A stretch of DNA of 22,489 bases from IMG/VR virus record IMGVR_UViG_3300045977_000602, positions 1-22,489 of that record; one strand, written 5' to 3'. Shown here piece by piece: positions 16 through 22,489 of this stretch. Source of the stretch: a virus. The translations under genes and the position numbers were made by a program. Position 1 is the stretch's first letter. The number at the start of each line of letters is the position of its first letter. The notes under the pieces were generated by a model. That model had not been told where the DNA came from, searched no databases, and was given only the letters and a program-made list of their open reading frames with translations.

Positions 16-450
16 ATGAACGAACTCAACGCACTCATGCGACAGATGGAACGCATCGCCCGACCGATATTCGAGCAAGCCGAGCGGCACGGCGAAATGA
101 TCCGGCAAGCTGAACGCATCGCCCGACCAATACTTGAGCAAGCCGAGCGGCACGGCGAAATGATCCGGCAAGCCGAACGCATCATCCGACCGATTATCGA
201 AGCCCATGAACGAATTCGCCCACTTCTTGAGGCACATAACAGAATGATGGAGATATGCCTTCCTCACACCGTTGAACCACCAAAATACGTCGTGGTCCAA
301 TCCGTCGAATATCCCGATAGTCGATTACAGCACGAAAAACAAGATGGACGCAAACAGAGGCGAATCGGATTTCGGTTGCCAGATGAACCAGAGCCAGACG
401 ACGACGAATTCCAAGAACATCCACCAGAGCGACGAAGAATTGGATTCTAA
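16..450 (+). CDS. Repeat-containing helical protein, function unknown
   Basis: A 144-residue protein that I do not recognise. The N-terminal half is built from a 21-residue unit (core QAERHGEMIRQAERIARPI) present in two near-identical copies plus a diverged third, predicted to be long amphipathic helix or coiled coil. The C-terminal 40 residues are charged and carry RRIGF twice, once ending the protein; the acidic stretch between them (PEPDDDE) suggests disorder. The ATG has GGGAG a few bases upstream. It is followed by a lipoprotein gene on the same strand and may share its transcript. No catalytic motif, signal peptide or membrane segment is visible. Helical-repeat proteins of this type can be assembly or scaffolding factors, but nothing here shows that. 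The upstream promoter, if any, lies outside the window. Confidence 0.6.
   Translation: MNELNALMRQMERIARPIFEQAERHGEMIRQAERIARPILEQAERHGEMIRQAERIIRPIIEAHERIRPLLEAHNRMMEICLPHTVEPPKYVVVQSVEYPDSRLQHEKQDGRKQRRIGFRLPDEPEPDDDEFQEHPPERRRIGF
49..201 (+). repeat. 63-bp in-frame tandem repeat (2 full, 1 partial)
   Basis: Two nearly identical 63-bp units lie at 49-111 and 112-174, and a diverged partial third copy begins at 175. The period is a multiple of three, so each unit adds 21 residues to the encoded helix. The first two copies differ at only a few bases, which suggests recent duplication. Confidence 0.85.
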
Positions 451-3063: not shown

Positions 3064-3081
3064 GTATCTCAACGGAGATAC
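3064..3081. other. Short hairpin at the head of the repeat array
   Basis: GTATCTC (3064-3070), AACG, then GAGATAC (3075-3081) form a perfect 7-bp stem. Its 3' arm runs into the first copy of the 14-bp repeat. Confidence 0.5.
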
Positions 3082-3199
3082 GAGGACTAGATACGAGGAC
3101 TGAAATACGAGGACTGAAATACGAGGACTGAAATACGAGGACTGAAATACGAGGACTGAAATACGAGGACTGAAATACGAGGACTGAAATACGAGGACT
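3078..3199 (+). repeat. Nine-copy tandem array of a 14-bp GAGGA unit
   Basis: The core ATACGAGGACT occurs nine times, starting at 3078, 3091, 3105, 3119, 3133, 3147, 3161, 3175 and 3189. From the second copy onward the period is exactly 14 bp (unit GAAATACGAGGACT) and the last seven units are identical. Each copy holds GAGGA, the same ribosome-binding-site type used elsewhere on this phage (for example before 11283). The last GAGGA is about 13 bases before the ATG at 3211. The array fills most of the leader of the packaging operon. It could be an iteron-type protein-binding array (replication, packaging or regulation) or a ribosome-loading leader. Confidence 0.95.
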
Positions 3200-3210
3200 G
3201 AACATACTGT

Positions 3211-12335: not shown

Positions 12336-14519
12336 ATGGCAAAGATTGCAGAGCTAGATATTTTGCTTCGTGGCAACACGAAAAACCTAGACGGTGCGTT
12401 AGACAAAGCGGGTGCGGGTGTATCCAAGTTCAAGGACAAGGTTGTACAAAGCACAAACGAAGCTAACGCACGTCTTGCTACTATTGGCAATTCTATCAGT
12501 GGCGGCTTTCGCACGGCTCTACTCTCTCCCATCGAAGCGGCATCAAGTGCCGTGGCTACTCTCGGCTCATTTCTCAAGAAAGCATTTACAGACCCCATCG
12601 GAGCGGCCAAAGACTTAGTAGGCACGGTCAAGGGCATCGGTGAAGGCATCATATCCAGCGTCAAGGGCATCGGCAGCAAGATCGTAAGCGGCTTGAAATT
12701 CGCCGTTGATCCAAGTGCGTGGGCCGGTGCAATCAAGAATCTCGCCAGTGCGGGCGGCTCTGCCGGTGGTGTACTTTCTTCTCTTGGCACAATCCTTGGC
12801 GGTGCCGTGGCCACTGGCGTAGGTGCGGTAGCCATTGCTGCCGTAGCTGGCAGTGCTGCCGTTTTGGGGCTTGGTGCGGCTCTCGTCTATCTCGGAAGCA
12901 AACAAGCCGACGTGATTGCCGGAATGCACAAGACGGCCCAAACACTCGGCTTCACTACGGAGCGATTCTCCGCACTGGCATCTACAAGCGGAATGGATGT
13001 TGACCAATTCGGCCAATCAACTGCCAAGCTACAAGCACAGTTAGTTGACGCCGCTCGCAATGGTGGAGAGACGGCGGTTGCTCTAGGCCGGGTGGGGCTA
13101 AACGCTCGCCAGCTTGTGAACATGGCACCCGATCAACAGCTACGGGCCATTGCGGGAGCAATGGGGAACATCAGCAATCAAGCCGAACGGCTACGCTTGG
13201 CACGCCAGCTATTCGGGGAAGAAAGAGGTTTCGACTTTGCCCGACTACTCGGCAGAGGCACACAAGGACTAGATGAAGCGGAAGCGAGAGCGAGACGCTT
13301 CGGCCTTGTCATCAGCGATAGCCAAGCCGAAATGGTAGCTCGCTCAAATCGAGTATGGAGCGAATGGTCACTAGGTCTACAAGGCATTGGCCGTAGCGTA
13401 GCGGTGATGCTGGCACCCGCATGGGAACTTGCGGGCCGCATACTTGGTGCGTTCTTTGGAAAGATAAGCGAGTGGGTGCGAGCGGCAGTACCCTATTTCG
13501 AGATGTTTTGGGGAATAGTACAAACCGTCATTGATGACGTAATGGCGTTCATACAACCGGCTCTTGATTGGCTAGACGGTGCCGTGAATGGTATTGGTAG
13601 CTGGATAGGAAAGATGATAAGCGATGTAGTTCCTATGGTACGTCAAGGATGGAACATTCTCAAATCTATCTTCTCTGTAGCGTGGGAGTTCATCGTAGCC
13701 GGATGGAACGCTTTGGTATCGTTCGTTGCTCCAATCATTCAGAGCTTCGTTACACAAGTGCAAGGGTGGTTCTCCGCTCTTGGCGGCTTCCTTGTAGGTG
13801 AGAATATCACTACATGGGATCAATTCAAGGACAGAGTTCTCCGCATACTCATCACGATGGAATTTGGTATTCGCAACTGGCAACGTGTAGGCGAGCTTGC
13901 CTTGAATATGTTGCGGCTCAAGTTCTATGAATGGGCCAGTGGATTACAACCAATCGCACAAGCTGTACAGAGCTTCCTAAACGGGATGATTGATGGTTTC
14001 AACACTGTCACAAGAGGACTAGCCCGCACAATCCAAAGTAGCATCAATGGCATCATCGACGGCTACAACGCACTGGCACAAAGAGTAGGTGCAAGGCAAA
14101 TCTCTGGACGTATCAACGTCGATGCACGGCAGCTAGGCCACGTCAATCTTGAAATCGCAAACGTGGAGGATCGGATACGGGAGCTTCGCCAGCTTGTGAG
14201 TAACCAGCAAGGTGAGCTTTCACAAGACTTAAACGCATTCATCCAAAGGCGAATGCGAGAGCTTACAGAGCAACGCCAGCGTGCCGAGCAAACCACAAAC
14301 AACAGAGCGGCAATGTCGCAAGGCATCGAAAAGAAGGACAACAAGGCAATAGAGAAAGGCAGCGTGGAAGCGTTTAGCGTCATCGTTGGCGACAAGGGAG
14401 ATAAACAGTTTCAAGCTCTCAACCGTATCGTGGGAGAAATGAGAGACGCCAACAATCTTAACCGGCAGCAATTACGAGAGCTACAAAACAGATTGAGTAT
14501 AGCGATAGCACGATTGTAA
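12336..14519 (+). CDS. Tape measure protein
   Basis: A 727-residue protein, by far the longest gene, in the expected place after the tail chaperones. It sets tail length and is ejected with the DNA. Features: helical N terminus (MAKIAELDILLRGNTKNLDG), a long Gly/Ala hydrophobic segment (about 145-187, likely membrane-inserting), a MHKTAQTLGFTTERFSALAS segment typical of phage tape measures (TMP repeats), a Trp-rich hydrophobic region (about 375-480) and a coiled-coil C terminus with many Gln/Arg. By the rule of thumb of 0.15 nm per residue the tail would be near 110 nm. No lysozyme or peptidase motif is seen. Confidence 0.92.
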   Translation: MAKIAELDILLRGNTKNLDGALDKAGAGVSKFKDKVVQSTNEANARLATIGNSISGGFRTALLSPIEAASSAVATLGSFLKKAFTDPIGAAKDLVGTVKGIGEGIISSVKGIGSKIVSGLKFAVDPSAWAGAIKNLASAGGSAGGVLSSLGTILGGAVATGVGAVAIAAVAGSAAVLGLGAALVYLGSKQADVIAGMHKTAQTLGFTTERFSALASTSGMDVDQFGQSTAKLQAQLVDAARNGGETAVALGRVGLNARQLVNMAPDQQLRAIAGAMGNISNQAERLRLARQLFGEERGFDFARLLGRGTQGLDEAEARARRFGLVISDSQAEMVARSNRVWSEWSLGLQGIGRSVAVMLAPAWELAGRILGAFFGKISEWVRAAVPYFEMFWGIVQTVIDDVMAFIQPALDWLDGAVNGIGSWIGKMISDVVPMVRQGWNILKSIFSVAWEFIVAGWNALVSFVAPIIQSFVTQVQGWFSALGGFLVGENITTWDQFKDRVLRILITMEFGIRNWQRVGELALNMLRLKFYEWASGLQPIAQAVQSFLNGMIDGFNTVTRGLARTIQSSINGIIDGYNALAQRVGARQISGRINVDARQLGHVNLEIANVEDRIRELRQLVSNQQGELSQDLNAFIQRRMRELTEQRQRAEQTTNNRAAMSQGIEKKDNKAIEKGSVEAFSVIVGDKGDKQFQALNRIVGEMRDANNLNRQQLRELQNRLSIAIARL

Positions 14520-14527
14520 AGAGGAAT

Positions 14528-15649
14528 ATGGCAGCGACACTTATAGGAATAAGACAAGGATACCCGAAAGCTGATTTCAGTCTAACCGGACGCAAGTATA
14601 CCGTTCAATGGATTGTACAATGCGATAGCTACGATGACGGGCCGATTGTGGCACAAGCCGCAAGTGGACTACCAGTAGCATACAGTAGCTACAATTTCGG
14701 CAACGATGTAGATACACTCGCCTTGCTCCGATCTTGGAACGTAAACCGCCTAGAGGAAAACTCACTCGAATGGGTGGTGGAAGCAACGTACACCACACCC
14801 GAAAGAAAAGACGGTGCCGGGCCGGGTGGTAATACTGGTACGGGTGGTGGAACACACACAGATACGCCGGGCAGTTTCGACAACCCACTACTTGAGCTAC
14901 CAGTAGTAAAGACGTGGAGTATAGAACGTGATTTGCCAGTTGAGAGAATCTACAACGTCAATACCGGGCGGTTCAATCCGCCAATGAACTCGGCTTGTGA
15001 AGTATTCAATCCACCCGCTATGCGGAAAGATAGATACCTAGCAATCTCAATTTCTCGGAACGAAGTGCTTTCCAACGTACATCCGGCTCTAGGTGTTGCC
15101 TACAGTGGTGCCGTGAACGCAACTATCTTTTGGGGATTAGCTGCCGGTTTGGTTCAATGTCAATCTGTAACTGCCGAGAGACAGAGCAAGCAACTACCTA
15201 ACGGCACTCTCTTTGCCTATCTGAAATGCGAGTATGTATTTCATTGTCGGCGTGAAGGATGGGATTTACTCATTCTGAATGCTGGCAATTACTATTGTCC
15301 CACGGATCAATCTGGCTCTGGTAGCTCTGGAAGCTCTGGCAGCGGGTGCTGCCCGTCCGGTGTTGAGAGCTTGAACAATGGCGAATGGTGTTTAGGTGAG
15401 GACGGAAGTTACTATCCGGGTGATTGTGGCTCTGGTTCCGGCACTGGCGGCTATAGTCCATGCCGAACTAACTGTACGATCAAGAGAGCATTTCAAGACG
15501 AGCAAGGGCATCCTATCAAGGGACTACTGAATTGGAATGGCGGAAGATTAGCACAAGACGCCGACCCGGTGTATATGCGGCTTAGGGTGTATCCGTGGCT
15601 GAATTTCAATGTACTCAATCTGCCACAATCATTTAGCGGAGTTCAATGA
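14528..15649 (+). CDS. Tail/baseplate protein with Gly/Ser linkers
   Basis: A 373-residue protein following the tape measure, where the distal tail or baseplate hub starts. The N-terminal 95 residues are beta-rich (GRKYTVQWIVQCDSYDDGPI) and a Gly/Thr-rich linker (GPGGNTGTGGGTHTDTPG) joins them to a second domain (SIERDLPVERIYNVNTGRFN, AYSGAVNATIFWGLAAGLVQ, AYLKCEYVFHCRREGWDLLI). Then comes a linker rich in GSGSS, a short Cys-rich segment (CCPSGVESLNNGEWCLGEDG), and a C-terminal domain ending WLNFNVLNLPQSFSGVQ. No enzymatic motif. AGAGGA precedes the ATG. Probably a virion protein at the tail tip; the exact role is not clear from sequence alone. Confidence 0.7.
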   Translation: MAATLIGIRQGYPKADFSLTGRKYTVQWIVQCDSYDDGPIVAQAASGLPVAYSSYNFGNDVDTLALLRSWNVNRLEENSLEWVVEATYTTPERKDGAGPGGNTGTGGGTHTDTPGSFDNPLLELPVVKTWSIERDLPVERIYNVNTGRFNPPMNSACEVFNPPAMRKDRYLAISISRNEVLSNVHPALGVAYSGAVNATIFWGLAAGLVQCQSVTAERQSKQLPNGTLFAYLKCEYVFHCRREGWDLLILNAGNYYCPTDQSGSGSSGSSGSGCCPSGVESLNNGEWCLGEDGSYYPGDCGSGSGTGGYSPCRTNCTIKRAFQDEQGHPIKGLLNWNGGRLAQDADPVYMRLRVYPWLNFNVLNLPQSFSGVQ

Positions 15650-16815
15650 GTTTAGCGATATTCGACCAAAGAGACGTAGAGCGGCTTGGTAGACTACTTG
15701 CCGATTATGAAGCGGGCAACCTAGCTCGCTCCGATGCTCACGCCACGCCAAGAGCCACGGCGATTGAAACCTATCTCGGCAAGGTGATAGAGACGATACC
15801 GGCGTCATTCGGCAGTCCTACAAGTGGCACCGTAAGCATCTACTCTGGCGATGGACTAGCACAATTCGAGACGACGGCCTACAGTCTATGGAGCGATGCA
15901 ATAGCCGTTGGATGCTGGGTACATCTCTCCCGGTGTCCTTACTCTGGCAGATACTTTGTAGTGAGCAAGCCACGCTGCGAACCGAATGGTAGCGGTAGCG
16001 GTGATTGCGATTGCGTTTTGCCAGCTACATATTGTTTGACGTTCCACAATGTAACCGGGTGCGAGTGCTTAGACGGCGAGACCGTCATCCTAACCGATGG
16101 AGTGCTAACGCCGTGGACAAGTCCTTGCCCCGCTCCGAATCCGCCAGACTTCGATATATACGTTCAGACTTGCACGGTGTACGGCCCGGTATTGTGGATA
16201 ACGGGTAACTCGAATTTTTGGGACTTGATGATTCCATTGACGGGTACTTGTGACCCGCTCAATCTGGTTAGTGACACCGTGTTTGCCAATCCGAATTTCT
16301 GTTCACAACCAGTTTCTAGTTTCACAGTTGAGCTTACACAAATATGTCCAGCAAGTGCATGGTATTGCTTAGAACCCGGCTCTAGCGGAAGCGGCAGTAG
16401 CGGGAGTGGCGGCGGGAGCGGCACTATAGAGACGGATTGTTGTGAGGAAATGCTGCCGGAAAACGTCACCGCCACATTCTCGAATACAACTGGTGATTGC
16501 AGTTGCTTGGAAGGATTGCAGCTAGATTTGTTTTGGGATTTCAACGAATGGCATTCACCCGGCTTTGACATTCCGACCGATTGCGGGAGTAGCATACGGC
16601 TTCGTGTATTCTGCGACGACTTCAGCAATCCATACCCGCTCCCCGATTGTCGCAATTTCAAGATAAGCCTAACGTGTCCGGCTGGCGGGGTGCCGTTTAC
16701 CGGCTCACCATATCCAAGCTCTTGTAGTTGTGAACCATTCGAGCTTGTGTTTACTGGCTTGTCTTTTACTGGCGGGTGCTGTGAGGGTACGTTTGACTTG
16801 ACAATAACGGGGTGA
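15646..16815 (+). CDS. Cys-rich tail-tip/receptor-binding candidate
   Basis: A 389-residue protein. Residues 1-90 contain no cysteine and look like a virion-anchoring domain (SLAIFDQRDVERLGRLLADY; a beta-rich part follows). From residue 90 on there are 26 cysteines, many as CxC or CC. Two copies of a roughly 120-residue beta-type domain follow, joined by a linker GSSGSGSSGSGGGSG: copy 1 opens with CDCVLPATYCLTFHNVTGCE, copy 2 with CCEEMLPENVTATFSNTTGD. A third copy is in the next gene. Gly/Ser linkers, disulphide-like spacing and repeated domains fit an exposed, multidomain host-binding protein. Overlaps the previous gene by 4 bp. Could instead be a decoration protein. Confidence 0.65.
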   Translation: MSLAIFDQRDVERLGRLLADYEAGNLARSDAHATPRATAIETYLGKVIETIPASFGSPTSGTVSIYSGDGLAQFETTAYSLWSDAIAVGCWVHLSRCPYSGRYFVVSKPRCEPNGSGSGDCDCVLPATYCLTFHNVTGCECLDGETVILTDGVLTPWTSPCPAPNPPDFDIYVQTCTVYGPVLWITGNSNFWDLMIPLTGTCDPLNLVSDTVFANPNFCSQPVSSFTVELTQICPASAWYCLEPGSSGSGSSGSGGGSGTIETDCCEEMLPENVTATFSNTTGDCSCLEGLQLDLFWDFNEWHSPGFDIPTDCGSSIRLRVFCDDFSNPYPLPDCRNFKISLTCPAGGVPFTGSPYPSSCSCEPFELVFTGLSFTGGCCEGTFDLTITG

Positions 16816-16816
16816 A

Positions 16817-17335
16817 ATGAGCGAGTGTTTCTATTTGACAGCCAACGAACTAGCCGACATGCAAGCGGACGGATGGACGTTAGTAAACGGCCCGCACGCT
16901 ACAGAGGCAGATTGTATAGCGGCTTGTGGTGGAAGTGGTGATTCTGGTAGCTCTGGCGGCTCTGGTAGTGATTGTCCGTGTCAGCCACTTCCTACAGATG
17001 TTATTGCGACAATCGTTACCTCTACAGACCCTTGCATAGAGGGATTATTTTGCACGCTTACAGATACGGGTGGTGGTATTCAATGGACTGGATTTTTGCC
17101 CTATAGCGGCGGGCCGACGTGTACAGAATCCACAAGCTACTGGTATGTGAATCTGACTTGTAGTAGTTCCGCATACTACACTGGTTTGCAATGGGTGTTA
17201 TCACTCTCTAATACACCGGGCGGGGGAACGGTTCACGAATGCTTTCCGATGGATGTAGTATCGTGTGACCCATTGCACTTGCAATGCGACATGACAATAG
17301 GCGGGGCATCTACCACTTGGATCATTACGGAGTAG
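16817..17335 (+). CDS. Small Cys-rich virion protein, third copy of the repeat domain
   Basis: A 172-residue protein with 12 cysteines. The N-terminal 35 residues (MSECFYLTANELADMQADGW) are a short unique module, followed by a linker GGSGDSGSSGGSGSD. The rest is a third copy of the domain in the preceding gene: it starts CPCQPLPTDVIATIVTSTDP, has VNLTCSSS in the middle, DVVSCDPLHLQCDM, and ends TTWIITE. It starts one base after the preceding stop codon, so it is cotranslated. A tail-tip accessory or adhesin-like subunit is the best guess. No catalytic motif. Confidence 0.65.
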   Translation: MSECFYLTANELADMQADGWTLVNGPHATEADCIAACGGSGDSGSSGGSGSDCPCQPLPTDVIATIVTSTDPCIEGLFCTLTDTGGGIQWTGFLPYSGGPTCTESTSYWYVNLTCSSSAYYTGLQWVLSLSNTPGGGTVHECFPMDVVSCDPLHLQCDMTIGGASTTWIITE

Positions 17336-17337
17336 AT

Positions 17338-18801
17338 ATGGGGTGCCGTTGCGGGAAGACAATCAGACCAATACAGAGGACAATGAAAACAACCAAAACA
17401 ACCAAGCGGCCTTGCACTTGTGATAAGCCAACGTGTCGCTTGTGCAAACTATATCACAATGATCCGAAATACCAACGTCTTTGGGGTAACAAGACCGTCT
17501 TGGAAATGAAAGCCAATGGCATCGGCGATGCTTTGTTAGGTCTAGTTGCCGTGAAAGGATACCAACAAAAGCACGGTGCCGCTTCCTACTCTTGCAAGAA
17601 TCAAGAATGGGTGAGGCTCTTTGATGGATATGATGAATTACTTTCGTTCAATCAATCGAACTCCATCAACATCAACGAAGGATACCAAGCCGAGTGCAAG
17701 AGCAAGGCAACCAAGCCTCGATGGAAACGCTATTGTGAACTAGCTGGCGTTGACCCGGCAACGCCAGAATTAAAGAACAGAGCGAAGCTACTTGAGCAAT
17801 CGGCACCATACAGAGGATGTATTGTACTCGCTCCATTCTCCATCTACACGAATCGCAACTACAGCGTGGAAGGATGGATTACGCTCGAAAGGTTGTTATT
17901 GGCCAAAGGGCATAGGGTAGTGTTGCTCCATAACAATATCACTCCGCTCGCTCGCTTCACGTCCGAAAAACTGATAGGCAAACCGGCAGAGATTGTAGCC
18001 AGCGTCATCTTGAACGCCGCTTGTTTCGTCGGCGTAGATAGTGGAATGGCACACCTTGCCAGCTTGATCGGCACGCCCACTTGTGTCTTGTGCGGGCCGA
18101 CGAATGCCAGCGATATATTCTACACACCAGTTATCGAAATCAAAAGCTCCATCCATTGTCAAGGATGTTACTGGCAGACTCCGTATACCGGAGCTTGTGA
18201 TAAAGGGTGTGCGGCTCTTTGGGCTATCACGCCAGAGCAAATACTACACACAATCGAATCGAATATGACGTTACGCCATTTCTCGCCAAGATCATTGATG
18301 GGAGAGAAGGAATTGCAAGTCATCAGAGACAACGTACTAGCCGTGAAAGAACTAGATGGAGAGTGTGCCGAGATAGGCGTATACAAGGGCGGGAGTGCCA
18401 GAATAATTTTGCACTACTCGGCTTGTCCAGTGCATCTATACGATACGTTCTCTGGACAACCCGCCGACGATATGCACGGAGAACACAAGCAAGGCGATTT
18501 CTCGGATACCAGTGTGGAAGCCGTTAAGAGCTATCTAGCCAGCGACCGGGCCGTACTCCATCAAGCCAGTTTCCCCGATGACGTTGCCGACGTGAAATAC
18601 AAGTTCGTTCACTTTGACGCCGATACCTACCAAGCTACCAGAGGCTTGATAACGCATATCGTGCCGAGAATGGCGAAGGGTGGAAGGATCATCGTTTCTG
18701 ATTTCGGATGGAAGAATACGCCGGGTGTGAAGCGAGCGATAGCCGAGAGCGGCGTACCGTTCACAATGGCGAGCGAGTATCAAGCCGTGGTGGTGTGCTA
18801 G
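17338..18801 (+). CDS. Glycosyltransferase (GT9-like) fused to an O-methyltransferase
   Basis: A 487-residue fusion. N-terminal Cys-rich tail (MGCRCGK, then PCTCDKPTCRLC at 25-36), possibly zinc-binding. Glycosyltransferase domain, GT9/heptosyltransferase-like: NGIGDALLGLVAVKGYQQKHG (60-80) at the N-terminal nucleotide-fold start and FVGVDSGMAHLASLIGTPTC (230-249), the family's C-terminal signature. Residues 320-487 form a TylF/MycF-like methyltransferase: AEIGVYKGGSA (344-354, SAM loop), HFDADTY (425-431, likely metal ligands) and IIVSDFGW. It could add and then O-methylate a sugar on virion protein, perhaps the Ser-rich linkers of the three upstream proteins; that is inference. The ATG at 17338 fits a GGAG site and follows the previous stop by 2 bp. 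Its stop codon overlaps the convergent ATPase stop. Confidence 0.75.
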   Translation: MGCRCGKTIRPIQRTMKTTKTTKRPCTCDKPTCRLCKLYHNDPKYQRLWGNKTVLEMKANGIGDALLGLVAVKGYQQKHGAASYSCKNQEWVRLFDGYDELLSFNQSNSININEGYQAECKSKATKPRWKRYCELAGVDPATPELKNRAKLLEQSAPYRGCIVLAPFSIYTNRNYSVEGWITLERLLLAKGHRVVLLHNNITPLARFTSEKLIGKPAEIVASVILNAACFVGVDSGMAHLASLIGTPTCVLCGPTNASDIFYTPVIEIKSSIHCQGCYWQTPYTGACDKGCAALWAITPEQILHTIESNMTLRHFSPRSLMGEKELQVIRDNVLAVKELDGECAEIGVYKGGSARIILHYSACPVHLYDTFSGQPADDMHGEHKQGDFSDTSVEAVKSYLASDRAVLHQASFPDDVADVKYKFVHFDADTYQATRGLITHIVPRMAKGGRIIVSDFGWKNTPGVKRAIAESGVPFTMASEYQAVVVC

Positions 18802-19895
18802 GCACGCTTGGCTTTACGCTTGAAATCCGTCTTGGCGGAATTGAATCCCTTTTGATATTCTTCACTGTCTTTGGGCTTAGTAGACCATTCGACGCTACGG
18901 CCCGTCCGCTTGCACCACTCGACTAGCTTCGCCTCTTGGCTAGGCCACTTCTTACCGGCAAGCTCGCCAGCGATTAGAGCTTCATCGTATATGCGTTCTT
19001 TGCGGCTACGCTTGGAAGCCCCCACGATTTCTTTAAGCTGGGAGAGAAGCATATTTCGCCAGTTGATAGACGGTTCTAGTTTCGACAACGCCAGAAACCG
19101 AAAGCCGGAAATAAGGATACGCAAGTTGAGTTTCTTTTCGGCACCCTTGCTATCTCGTTTCAAGGTAGGATCATCTTCGATGCTGGACAATAGGAACTCC
19201 AACACGGTGTAGCAATCATCCTTGGCGAGCGGAGCGGCAGAAATCTCTTTGTATCCACGCTCACACAGTTCCTTCATCTTGGCAACTAGCTCAAGATTGG
19301 ATACATCGAAATTCAAGAATGGGCATCTAGTTTTCACGGCATCTACTTCCGTTTTCAATTCTGGTAGCAATCGGTTCCCTACGATAATAAGAGAGCCGGT
19401 GAAGAAAAAATCGTAGATTTCGATGGACGTTTTCCACGTCACCCGCCGCTTCGAGTGGAGAGTATGGTCTTGCGAGTGCAACGCCATACGCAGCACGCCC
19501 CATGCGTTCTTATCATCGAATATCGTTTCGGCATCTTCGATGACGTGGAGCGATTGCGGGAAGCGAGCGAGTTCCTTCACCAAGCCCTTTGGCGTGATAC
19601 GGCCTTGATGATTCACCCATGTATCGTAGCCGTGTTCCGTTTTTTCTTCCTCTTCATCGCTGTCTATATCATCGTCAGCCAATATATCATCCGGCTGAAT
19701 TTCCTTGATATTACGCTCCATCAGCGTTTCACGGATGGAGTACGATTTTCCATTTCCGCCCGCACCAAACAAACCAAGTCCGGTGTGGGTGCCTTTGATG
19801 CAAGCCAGCGTGAAATCTTTTACTTCACGGCACTTGTAGGCGTAGCTCTCCAAGAGTGCTTTGTCAGCTTGTGTCAACTTACGTTCAATCTTCAT
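18798..19895 (-). CDS. AAA+ ATPase, probable replication/helicase-loader-like partner
   Basis: A 365-residue P-loop ATPase. Walker A GAGGNGKS (44-51), an acidic insert (DDDIDSDEEEE), a conserved GLVKEL stretch, Walker B LHVIED (116-121), the FDDKNAWGVLRMALHSQDH helix, KRRVTWKTS, and a SLIIVGNR sensor strand (168-175). C-terminal Lys/Arg-rich tail suggests nucleic acid contact. I recall similar phage and planctomycete ATPases with this Walker B/FDD/W arrangement; their role is not firmly known to me. It is divergent from the HUH initiator with shared leader sequence, so a role in replication initiation or helicase loading is the best inference. Promoter at 19969-19996; GGGAG before the ATG. 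Its stop shares the palindrome CTAG with the stop of the convergent fusion gene. Confidence 0.7.
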   Translation of the reverse strand: MKIERKLTQADKALLESYAYKCREVKDFTLACIKGTHTGLGLFGAGGNGKSYSIRETLMERNIKEIQPDDILADDDIDSDEEEEKTEHGYDTWVNHQGRITPKGLVKELARFPQSLHVIEDAETIFDDKNAWGVLRMALHSQDHTLHSKRRVTWKTSIEIYDFFFTGSLIIVGNRLLPELKTEVDAVKTRCPFLNFDVSNLELVAKMKELCERGYKEISAAPLAKDDCYTVLEFLLSSIEDDPTLKRDSKGAEKKLNLRILISGFRFLALSKLEPSINWRNMLLSQLKEIVGASKRSRKERIYDEALIAGELAGKKWPSQEAKLVEWCKRTGRSVEWSTKPKDSEEYQKGFNSAKTDFKRKAKRA

Positions 19896-19912
19896 CGCTT
19901 GTTACTCCCATA

Positions 19913-19974
19913 GTACAGTGGGGTACAGTTTGGGGGTAGAAATCCCAAAGTGTTCCTTTTGTACCCCCATTGTA
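19913..19974. promoter_or_regulatory. Paired dyad sites C and D upstream of the ATPase
   Basis: Site C GTACAGTGGGGTAC (19913-19926) and site D (19961-19974, GTACCCCCATTGTA) are inverted copies of the element also seen at 8971-9024, D with a one-base insertion and mismatch. Site D covers the -10 box of the ATPase promoter, which fits a repressor operator. The spacer carries CCAAAGTGT (19945-19953), also present at 9004-9012. Confidence 0.6.
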
Positions 19975-19996
19975 GTGCGGAGTGAGAAGTTGTAAA
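19969..19996 (-). promoter_or_regulatory. Sigma70-like promoter for the ATPase gene
   Basis: Read on the minus strand: -35 TTTACA (19996-19991), a 16-bp spacer, -10 TACAAT (19974-19969), each 5 of 6 to consensus. Expected start near 19962, giving a leader of about 67 bases to the ATG at 19895. Site D overlaps the -10. Confidence 0.65.
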
Positions 19997-20129
19997 GTGC
20001 GAGTTTGGTGAAAAATTGAAAAAGTGGTTTTCTGGTTGTACAGCCACAAAAAAACAAGTGTGAAGATGGGTAAGCCCGATCAAGACCCTATTCAATGTAT
20101 ATATACCGTAACTTTACGACACGCACCCT

Positions 20130-20158
20130 TTGCAATACGCACGTCAAGAGGATACAAT
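20130..20158 (+). promoter_or_regulatory. Sigma70-like promoter for the HUH initiator gene
   Basis: -35 TTGCAA (20130-20135), a 17-bp spacer, -10 TACAAT (20153-20158). Expected start near 20165, exactly at the foot of the hairpin 20165-20192. Confidence 0.55.
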
Positions 20159-20164
20159 AAAGAA

Positions 20165-20192
20165 CCCTCTGGCTTCATCACAAGCCAGAGGG
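20165..20192. other. Perfect 11-bp hairpin before the HUH initiator gene
   Basis: CCCTCTGGCTT (20165-20175), a 6-base loop (CATCAC), AAGCCAGAGGG (20182-20192); one further A-T pair extends it. No T run follows on the plus strand; on the minus strand TTCTTTATT follows, so it could be a minus-strand terminator. It may instead be a nicking-site hairpin for the HUH protein or a 5'-end stabiliser for its mRNA. Confidence 0.75.
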
Positions 20193-20213
20193 TCAAGGGA
20201 GTAGTAACGAGCA

Positions 20214-20927
20214 ATGACACAATTATATCAGAGCAACGCACCACTAAGCAAGGGTGAAAGCCCGCACGACAACGGGTGGACGAAAAGCCAAGAGGGTGCC
20301 ATATACGAAGCGAAGAAACTTTCAGCCGCACTGTGTAGCAATCCAAGAGCGACGTGGTTCCTTACGATCTACATTCGGCCCGTACTGGATGCTCGCCAGC
20401 ATAAATTACTTTTTCAGAAAGCCGCAAGGGTACTTCGCAAAAACAAGATTTGTGCATTTTGGATTCGTGAAATCCTTCCCACGGACAAACTACATTATCA
20501 TATCCTTGTGCGGAATGATATAAGCCGAGAGCATCTAGCCGAGATATGCGAAAGTGCTTTTCCAGAGCGTAGTATCACAAGTTGGCACAAGCGTATAATG
20601 GCGGTGCCGAGCGTGCAAGATCATAACCGAATATCGAGATATATCACGAAAGCCAAGATCATCGGCAAATATCGTGGGCGGGTGGTGAATGACAAGTATA
20701 AGCACAAGCGGCACCTATTCCAAGCAAAGACGGGCTTAAATAAACACGGTACGCTTGGCGGGTATTGGTCGAAAAATCCCGATCTAGTATGGGATGAAAT
20801 AAAGAAGCGAGAGCGAGAGCTTGCCGATATATGCCGCACGGTGGGTATGGATGTTGGCCACGTTAAATACATACTTCGATGGAGAAAGCACAATGGACAG
20901 AGACGAGATTATCAGCCAGCTTGTTAA
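20214..20927 (+). CDS. HUH-endonuclease replication initiator (Rep-like)
   Basis: A 237-residue protein with the three motifs of HUH Rep proteins in order: motif I ATWFLTIYIRP (46-56), motif II LHYHILV with metal-binding H94 and H96, and motif III ISRYITKAK with candidate nicking Tyr143 and Lys146 (Y-x2-K). Basic C-terminal region (KYKHKRHLFQ, RWRKHNGQRR) should help bind DNA. Such enzymes nick one strand and stay covalently bound to the 5' end to start rolling-circle replication. A hairpin and promoter lie directly upstream, and the divergent ATPase might supply unwinding. GGGAG lies 13 bases before the ATG, in a leader similar to that of the ATPase gene. Larger HUH initiators are known in P2-like tailed phages; this one is small. 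A relaxase or transposase relation is less likely given the context. Confidence 0.75.
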   Translation: MTQLYQSNAPLSKGESPHDNGWTKSQEGAIYEAKKLSAALCSNPRATWFLTIYIRPVLDARQHKLLFQKAARVLRKNKICAFWIREILPTDKLHYHILVRNDISREHLAEICESAFPERSITSWHKRIMAVPSVQDHNRISRYITKAKIIGKYRGRVVNDKYKHKRHLFQAKTGLNKHGTLGGYWSKNPDLVWDEIKKRERELADICRTVGMDVGHVKYILRWRKHNGQRRDYQPAC

Positions 20928-21063
20928 AGAATACGGTGCCGAGCTTCGCACTTTGACGGATGACGAGCTATATGAGCATTTCCGGCTACAAAGGGAAGTA
21001 TCCCAGCTTACGGATAGAGATTGGATGGAGATAGCTGTCAAAGCGTCTAGGACGCAATCCTAG
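20893..21063 (+). CDS. Small acidic hypothetical protein
   Basis: A 56-residue helical protein (MDRDEIISQLVKEYGAELRT, then DDELYEHFRLQREVSQ) whose ATG overlaps the last 35 bp of the HUH gene, with GGAGA upstream, so it is cotranslated with it. No family recognised. Size and overlap suggest an accessory to the initiator; function unknown. An upstream in-frame ATG at 20821 lies deep inside the initiator gene and has no ribosome binding site of note. Confidence 0.55.
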   Translation: MDRDEIISQLVKEYGAELRTLTDDELYEHFRLQREVSQLTDRDWMEIAVKASRTQS

Positions 21064-21143: not shown

Positions 21144-21171
21144 ACACCCCACGGCGTTAGCCGTGGGGTGT
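21144..21171 (-). terminator. Strong hairpin, probable recombinase terminator
   Basis: ACACCCCACGGC (21144-21155), a GTTA loop, GCCGTGGGGTGT (21160-21171): a perfect 12-bp stem just beyond the recombinase stop. Read on the minus strand it runs into TTCTATATT, a modest T-rich tail. It could also stop transcripts arriving from the small gene at 21063. Confidence 0.7.
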
Positions 21172-21178
21172 GGGTGGA

Positions 21179-22489
21179 TTACTTGCCGAATATGAAAGCG
21201 TGAACGGTGGTAAGAGCCGTATCTAGTTCGGCTTTTTGCTCTGGCGTGAAGCTAGAGTAGTATTTGCCGTGGTTGCCGTGGGGTTTCTCACAACGATATA
21301 GGCGGCTCTGGCGTTCTCCGCATTTATCCTCTATCCATTGCTGGACAGTCTTACGCAACGCTGAATGATCCGGCAGACCGTGTTTCTTGGCAAAGGTATC
21401 GAAGTGTTCCCACAGACGGCGGGAGTATCGTTTCTTGCCGAGCTTGTCTTGCGGGCCGTATTGTAACACGGTTTTCGTTTCATCCCACAACAGCCAGCTT
21501 CCGACCATTGGCGTACCCTTGTTCTTATTTTTGGCTCTGCCTTTCTCGATACGTTCGCCGTTGATGAAATGATCCGTGGTGAGTTCCGCCAAATCCGACC
21601 AATAGAAACCAGCGTTCAAGCCCATCAAGAGTGCGAAACGAACATCGCCGGTAGCCTCTTTCAGAGCGGTTTGCACTTGCTCGAAACTGTAACGAATCTT
21701 CTTACCGTCTGGCGTAGCTTTCTTGTAATCGGGGTTACGGATGAAGCCGAAAAAGACGTTGTAATCAGCTTCGATGCGTTTCAAGAATGTGTGTACGATA
21801 CGCTGCCGGTTGATCCGGGTACGCTCACCCCACGTTTCTTGTTTTTCGAGTAGTTCAAGGAACTTGCGATAGTGGGTAGTATCCACTTCACGGAAGGGAA
21901 TATCCCCACAAGCCGAGAAGAAAAGATCAAGGGCGGCTTTCGTATCGTACCATCCCTTGTGTTCTTTTGCCTTGTGCCGAGCGATGTAGATTTCGATTTC
22001 GTTTTTCAAGCTGTCCTTTTTCGGGATAGCTGGCTTGATGAATTTATCTTCCAGAATGGAGAGGCGGATATAGTCGTCATCTTCGATGCCAAGCTCATTG
22101 GCGAGCGGTGCCACAAGCGGATTGACGATGGGCATATCGGCGTTGTAAATGTCGTGGGCCGGTACGTTGATGCACCGTTGCAACTCGGCATCAAGAGCGG
22201 TGGTATCTTGGCCTTGCTCTCGCAACATCCCGATGCAACGCTCGATAGACCATATCCGTAGCTTTAGTGGCGAGTTGTCCCGCTTGGTAGCGGTATCCTT
22301 GCTCTCCATCATCGCCAGATACTTTTGCCAGTATGGGCGGCTTGCGTTCTCGCTTTTCGGGAGTTCCACGTCAAAGAGCTTCGATAGCTGGCGGGTGGAC
22401 GCACTGTATTTGTGCGTGGTGGTACGGAGCTTCCAAGTAGCCGTCGAATGATCGTAGCAACCCGTTCCCTTACGTCGCATGTCTGTCAT
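21179..22489 (-). CDS. Tyrosine recombinase/integrase-like protein, diverged active site
   Basis: At least 436 residues; the ATG is at the last base of the window, so the true start may lie further out. Layout: an N-terminal arm-type region (1-155), a core-binding domain (about 160-245, HKGWYDTKAALDLFFSACGD to RQRIVHTFLKRIEADY) and a catalytic-like domain (about 265-436). In the first catalytic box LLMGLNAGFYWSDLAELT the usual Arg (GLR) is replaced by Asn/Ala; the HxxR box reads HSALRKT with Arg379 but Ser at the His position; HGNHGKYY offers a late His and candidate Tyr410/411. I recall a planctomycete integrase group with a similar GLN box. It would integrate or excise the phage, or be an inactive relative. 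A terminator follows its stop. Confidence 0.75.
   Translation of the reverse strand: MTDMRRKGTGCYDHSTATWKLRTTTHKYSASTRQLSKLFDVELPKSENASRPYWQKYLAMMESKDTATKRDNSPLKLRIWSIERCIGMLREQGQDTTALDAELQRCINVPAHDIYNADMPIVNPLVAPLANELGIEDDDYIRLSILEDKFIKPAIPKKDSLKNEIEIYIARHKAKEHKGWYDTKAALDLFFSACGDIPFREVDTTHYRKFLELLEKQETWGERTRINRQRIVHTFLKRIEADYNVFFGFIRNPDYKKATPDGKKIRYSFEQVQTALKEATGDVRFALLMGLNAGFYWSDLAELTTDHFINGERIEKGRAKNKNKGTPMVGSWLLWDETKTVLQYGPQDKLGKKRYSRRLWEHFDTFAKKHGLPDHSALRKTVQQWIEDKCGERQSRLYRCEKPHGNHGKYYSSFTPEQKAELDTALTTVHAFIFGK

Follow-up and report, generated by a model that had tools for sequence, protein, structure and literature searches.

Here, we report that two divergent genes of what looks like a small temperate tailed phage probably encode a single-tyrosine rolling-circle initiator and a helper ATPase. 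The reading in which the first of these, a small HUH protein of the Rep type, initiates rolling-circle replication of the phage with an ATPase resembling T4 nrdC.10 as its helper is given a probability of about 0.6. The analysis was made on the window, i.e. the whole IMG/VR record of 22,489 bases, and it shows the Rep motifs, their register with the Pfam family REP_ORF2-G2P, the divergent layout of the two genes and an apparent absence of other replication genes.

Results

Genome setting

The window carries a complete-looking structural module of a tailed phage (HNH, large terminase, portal, protease, capsid, connectors, tail proteins and tape measure), and the Rep/ATPase region is sited between the tail genes and an integrase gene. 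The latter (21179..22489, − strand), which is divergent and adjoins the module, was called tyrosine-recombinase-like from its position at the prophage end and otherwise by eye, its sole Pfam match being a weak one to Phage_int_SAM_5 (E 0.057). Two further IMG/VR contigs match the window at 100% identity, over 12,732 and 8,504 bases. They run beyond it, L003 by 1,338 bases on the right and L004 by 1,992 bases on the left, and GC climbs to 0.73 in the left flank. Taken as a whole, the window looks like a 22.5-kb prophage of a small temperate tailed phage, trimmed near its ends. Scans of the window against Rfam and for tRNAs gave no match, and neither did a tRNA scan of L003. A sibling phage (L005 and L006), found through TerL and capsid searches, has about 82% DNA identity to the window phage over most structural genes; its contigs run no further than the tape-measure gene and end short of the rep region.

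Several features of the flanks and of the left and tail regions were noted in passing. To the right of the window (L003:1-1338), two elements of 85-88 nt, 89% alike and similar to integron attC sites, lie beside short ORFs; one of them folds as expected of an attC site (z -4.20), and the prophage seems to lie beside a gene-cassette array. To the left, an ORF of 115 aa (L004:1573-1920) resembles the first part of the window integrase and is a candidate for a remnant of another element or for part of the attachment region. Near the left junction, a 50-bp stretch is 90% identical between two different phages (L004:1859-1908 and L006:1733-1782). Host-like genes (CN_hydrolase, metallo-beta-lactamase fold) border this stretch in L006, and it is a candidate attachment site. 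The left end looks like a slot for defence cargo, since the window there encodes a DUF6602 protein (988-1797, − strand), also matched by models of NucC/PD-DExK defence nucleases, and the left end of the sibling has a BanI-type restriction enzyme and a methylase in its place. Just upstream of the HNH gene is a tandem array of 9.3 copies of the 14-bp unit ATACGAGGACTGAA (3078-3207), which is missing at the same place in L006. The first ORF of the window (49-191) has a 63-bp in-frame duplication, and at the end of the tail genes (17284-18801) a glycosyltransferase-9 region and a TylF-like methyltransferase region are found in one protein.

The small, probable HUH protein

The rep gene (20214..20927, + strand, ATG start) encodes 237 amino acids, and the two motifs from which a sequence-only reading had proposed an HUH Rep are in place. 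The HUH metal motif is HYH at residues 94-96 (H94 and H96), and downstream of it the catalytic-tyrosine motif YxxK is found as YITK at residues 143-146. Y143 is the single candidate; it is followed by I, T, K and A, residue 147 being alanine, with no second tyrosine four positions on. Among the 54 open frames of at least 100 aa in the window, the motif pair is unique to Rep. An HxH followed at 25-80 residues by a YxxK also turned up in 3402 of 100000 shuffles of the protein (3.4%), and the pair alone is weak evidence of HUH identity.

The sole Pfam family that matches Rep is PF23343 (REP_ORF2-G2P), at E 0.0014 and 19.3 bits for the whole protein, E 3.3e-4 and 21.3 bits for the domain alone and 20.9 bits in a six-frame search; these scores (19.3-21.3 bits) do not reach the gathering cut-off of 27.8 bits. 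The alignment is in register, in that YITK falls on profile positions 94-97, which are also occupied by YFCK (MT835664), YIMK (FP_Toutatis), YCCK (a tortoise microvirus) and YISK (P2 gpA) in four of six comparators. In the other two, Arawn and a Parabacteroides microvirus, the profile ends on YTSE and YMYE, respectively. Against HUH identity, an hhalign comparison of the window Rep with a thin profile of six small Rep sequences reached a probability of only 5% (E 0.0074), although HUH was in register there too. At E up to 1, Rep was matched neither by Phage_GPA (PF05840; P2 gpA control 415 bits) nor by phrog_3584, a small replication initiation protein of tailed phages (positive control, the MT835664 Rep, E 2.9e-71), and the Pfam families of Y1 transposases gave no match at E up to 1 for the whole protein or up to 10 for the domain alone.

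A single-sequence AlphaFold model of Rep has low confidence (mean pLDDT 47.5) and displays the order of secondary-structure elements expected for HUH/Rep. Foldseek searches with this low-confidence model had pMV158 RepB and the SIRV1 ORF119 Rep among the best matches in the PDB, and CRESS, microvirus and one 'Caudovirales' (tailed-phage) Rep in BFVD. In a second structural comparison of the same low-confidence model, the SIRV1 Rep came first (2x3g; Z 9.3, rmsd 2.6, 106 residues, 26% identity), and a fold family missing from this comparison was not counted as excluded. Structure prediction had been proposed as a check on the fold, and the outcome is mixed: the model matches Reps first, but ribosomal-protein chains with an S6-like, generic ferredoxin-like fold are close behind (Z 8.5 and below). 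As the sole Pfam match is to PF23343, YITK is in register with that profile and the best matches of the low-confidence model are Reps, the 237-aa protein is probably a Rep-type HUH endonuclease with a single tyrosine.

The 3′ end of rep is overlapped by a small ORF of 56 aa from the ORF list (20893..21063, + strand), a possible co-transcribed gene; a longer reading of it with 80 aa had no significant family match.

The divergent ATPase

The P-loop ATPase of 365 aa that had been read next to rep is indeed encoded there (18798..19895, − strand), divergently and 318 nt away. Its gene is located outside the interval 19896-21063 quoted for the gene pair, the right end of that interval being the small ORF overlapping rep. 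Walker A (GAGGNGKS) starts at residue 44 and an acidic Walker B (VIED) at residue 118, and a sensor-like asparagine is present at N174. Residues 25-235 match phrog_1250 at E 2.6e-9, in a collection (PHROGs) that has no curated cut-off. A full member of this family is KVP40.0281 (455 bits), which is annotated as hypothetical and similar to T4 nrdC.10. Direct BLASTP between the two proteins was marginal (35% over 31 aa, E 0.002); they are collinear in Walker A, the acidic Walker B, W154 and the sensor-like N174, and the N-terminal part of KVP40.0281 is missing from the window ATPase. Judged by its sequence, the ATPase is distantly related to the T4 nrdC.10 family (phrog_1250). A structure model of the ATPase (pLDDT 39.7) was left unused.

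The intergenic region

The AT-rich character noted earlier for the divergent intergenic region (19896..20213, 318 nt) was borne out, since its AT content of 55.7% is equalled by 1.9% of 318-nt windows, and as ssDNA it has, over its whole length, an unusual amount of structure (z -5.60). The perfect hairpin reported between the genes is likewise real. It spans 20164..20193, with 12 bp and a loop of 6 (CATCAC), directly after the rep-side promoter-like site, and 12 pairs were reached in 0 of 300 dinucleotide shuffles of the region. As RNA, the hairpin stretch folds at -24.4 kcal/mol (z -4.43), and on the − strand it is followed by a T-rich, terminator-like tail. The sole other perfect hairpin of this length, also 12 bp (21144..21171), is placed between the convergent rep operon and integrase and is terminator-like on the − strand. 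Allowing up to one mismatch, the arm of the intergenic hairpin, CCTCTGGCTT, is matched 9 times in the window, where 1.19 matches are expected (e.g. 974-983, 2107-2116, 2135-2144 and 20166-20175), and a long perfect hairpin is found only at the rep-leader copy.

By consensus match only, promoter-like sites are found on both strands, towards rep (20129/20130..20158, + strand, 9 of 12) and towards the ATPase (19969..19996, − strand, 10 of 12). The two promoters of the sequence-only reading are present as sites, but the scanned region has 8 promoter-like sites where 4.5 (sd 2.0) would be expected. Close to where the ATPase gene starts, imperfect inverted repeats (arms 19922-19934/19944-19956 and 19931-19942/19958-19969) are candidates for an operator or binding site. 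The leaders of the two genes do resemble each other, as had been noticed. The resemblance is real but is that of an ordinary ribosome-binding context, and coordinated control, which had been read into it, was rejected, since the pair ranks 15th when all 378 pairs of gene leaders in the window are compared, and scores as high were reached by 548 of 20000 random pairs of ATG leaders. GC skew, another check that had been suggested, displayed no clear switch at the Rep/ATPase region.

Other replication genes and searches for the pair

The PHROGs scan covered 27 of the 30 gene-like ORFs in the window and among these gave no match to a helicase, primase, polymerase, SSB or other initiator. Outside the PHROGs scans are the tape measure (12336-14519), a tail-region ORF (15646-16815) and the glycosyltransferase-like ORF (17284-18801), the first and last of which were scanned against Pfam. 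Because no other replication gene was seen in the 27 ORFs, Rep, with or without the ATPase, is the best candidate replication module of the window.

Scans of viral contigs with Rep, ATPase, integrase and a tail protein, the last in search of sibling right ends, returned only the identical contig 3300045920_000112, and the rep gene is 100% identical in the second contig. Rep had no independent homologue in viral contigs, genome contigs, phage records or plasmids: at E up to 10, the matches listed among phages were only Vibrio and Dinoroseobacter (E 0.4 or worse, 32% of the query), and plasmids gave one IS21 match at E 2. The ATPase had no independent homologue in viral contigs, genome contigs, phages or plasmids either (E 5 among the matches listed for phages, at E up to 10), and no independent copy of the integrase was found in viral contigs, plasmids or solved structures. 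The search for the gene pair in other phages, which the sequence-only reading had called for, thus yielded none beyond the identical contig, and since no other phage with the pair was found, the term module is inferred from one phage lineage.

At the level of profiles, PF23343 was found in none of 20 records reached through TerL, of which one had a phrog_1250 match of 41 positions (E 0.001). PF23343 was present in 2 of 7 phage records (MT835664 and P2) and in 5 of 6 more, the exception being MT836068, and phrog_1250 was absent from both sets (0/7 and 0/6). Among four large phages, phrog_1250 was found in KVP40 and, weakly, in P-SSM2. A tblastn search with the MT835664 Rep matched 245 phage records, largely microviruses. 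A literature search by title, with subscription journals mostly outside its reach, gave nothing on small HUH initiators in tailed phages.

Discussion

The hairpin between the genes might be taken for the origin, which is speculation. A role as 5′-terminal stem of the rep mRNA, or as minus-strand terminator shielding the ATPase from antisense transcription, is in either case at least as likely, and we consider it slightly favoured that the hairpin is not the origin and that the nick site is elsewhere, e.g. inside rep. The stem starts at 20164, six bases past the −10 box of the plus-strand promoter-like site, which ends at 20158, so the rep mRNA would begin with the hairpin. The strong RNA fold and the terminator-like minus strand past the stem point in the same direction, and the origin may lie in rep, given that in P2 the nick site is inside gene A. 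On the other hand, nick sites of single-tyrosine Reps are often situated in hairpin loops, and the structured state of the whole intergenic region as ssDNA would also suit an origin. The HUH protein itself could be a transposase-like or RAYT-like Y1 enzyme that acts on hairpins rather than a replication initiator. A RAYT structure (4er8) and chains of the IsDra2 transposase are among the fold matches and, together with the repeated hairpin arm, speak for this. Such an identity is nevertheless quite unlikely, in that Rep matches REP_ORF2-G2P and, at E up to 1 (up to 10 for the domain alone), none of the Y1 transposase families of Pfam, and only the rep-leader copy of the arm forms a long perfect hairpin.

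The partnership of the two proteins is challenged from another side. Rep could be an initiator and the ATPase an unrelated neighbour, engaged in recombination, regulation or host takeover and divergent by coincidence, a possibility that we place clearly short of even odds. A phrog_1250 gene is carried by none of the four tailed-phage records with a small Rep; in the stretches read of these records the nearest frame with a Walker A is 1.8 kb (FP_Toutatis) or 9.1 kb (MT835664) away, or absent; and the phrog_1250 gene of KVP40, annotated as hypothetical, is close to nrd genes and topoisomerase gene 52. What argues for a partnership is that the rep and ATPase genes adjoin and that the PHROGs scans, covering 27 of the 30 gene-like ORFs, revealed no other candidate helicase or loader. 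It is very unlikely that Rep is a captured gene from a plasmid or ssDNA phage that has ceased to drive replication, the phage using host replication instead. Kazlauskas and colleagues state that Rep genes often move between plasmids and viruses (PMC6668415), and the sibling contigs end before the rep region and so allow no check of conservation there, but the rep frame is intact with both catalytic motifs and identical in the second contig.

In the preferred reading, a Rep initiator with a helper ATPase, H94 and H96 would hold a metal ion after excision of the prophage. At an origin within rep or close to it, one strand would be nicked by Y143, and Rep would remain attached to the 5′ end as polymerase and helicase of the host extend the 3′ end. 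Since there is a single tyrosine and hence no paired-tyrosine reaction within one subunit of the kind used by P2 gpA, closing the strand would call either for another subunit or for Y143 to act twice. The divergent ATPase may help, e.g. as a loader of a helicase at the nick or by remodelling it there. The nicking, the origin and this helper role are what we infer, the last from gene position, the one thing that ties the ATPase to replication.

A wider generalization, which at present appears unlikely, is that small temperate tailed phages possess a minimal module consisting of a single-tyrosine HUH initiator and a dedicated nrdC.10-like AAA+ ATPase, with the origin in the structured 318-nt divergent region and with helicase loading or nick remodelling as the first role for the T4 nrdC.10 family. 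If the preferred reading is right, a tailed phage of about 22.5 kb copies itself with one small nickase and one ATPase and would provide a simple two-protein system for studying rolling-circle replication of a dsDNA phage; for the T4 nrdC.10 ATPases, an uncharacterised family, it would suggest a role that can be put to the test. As a few tailed phages already have annotated small HUH initiators, what would be new is the pairing, together with the single-tyrosine chemistry. The suggestion of a distinct minimal replication module is retained in one respect, the pair being the only replication candidates in 27 of the 30 ORFs, and weakened in another, as small initiators are known and the pair was found nowhere else. 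Its significance will stay modest unless the pair is recovered from an independent phage.

The notion that rolling-circle replicons of tailed phages are mainly P2-like did not hold, since small initiators of 252-287 aa above the PF23343 cut-off are present in Faecalibacterium phage FP_Toutatis (gp32, 277 aa) and Butyrivibrio phage Arawn (gp43, 252 aa), both annotated as replication initiation protein, and in the gut contigs MT835664 (ORF of 271 aa) and MT835660 (ORF of 287 aa), in which terminase- and portal-like ORFs, recognised by eye, point to tailed phages. Like the window Rep, these are stand-alone proteins (250-290 aa) with HxH and the same Pfam domain in tailed-phage genomes, and YxxK is seen at the expected place in FP_Toutatis, Arawn and MT835664. 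Unlike the window Rep, all four exceed the PF23343 cut-off, none matches it directly in sequence and none is accompanied by a divergent nrdC.10-like ATPase.

The gpA and gpB proteins of P2 resemble the window pair as an HUH initiator of a temperate tailed phage with a second replication protein, and gpA also scores on PF23343 (31.0 bits). In contrast to the window Rep, gpA has 761 aa, belongs to Phage_GPA and carries two tyrosines 4 apart (450 and 454; YIAK-YISK), which react as a pair in cis; gpB has 166 aa and no significant Pfam match. T4-like phages replicate differently from the mode proposed here. The Reps of microviruses (VP4) and inoviruses (G2P) share the Pfam domain and motif order with the window Rep but belong to ssDNA phages, and two VP4-type proteins that were checked have 285 and 296 aa. 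The SIRV1 ORF119 Rep (2x3g) comes from a linear archaeal virus, unlike the window phage; according to PMC6668415, this Rep nicks and joins in vitro and forms an orphan cluster, and among dsDNA viruses Kazlauskas and colleagues name Myoviridae and Corticoviridae in their main HUH supercluster. The window Rep is thus of a known kind, and its divergence, its single tyrosine and its pairing with an ATPase set it apart as a variant.
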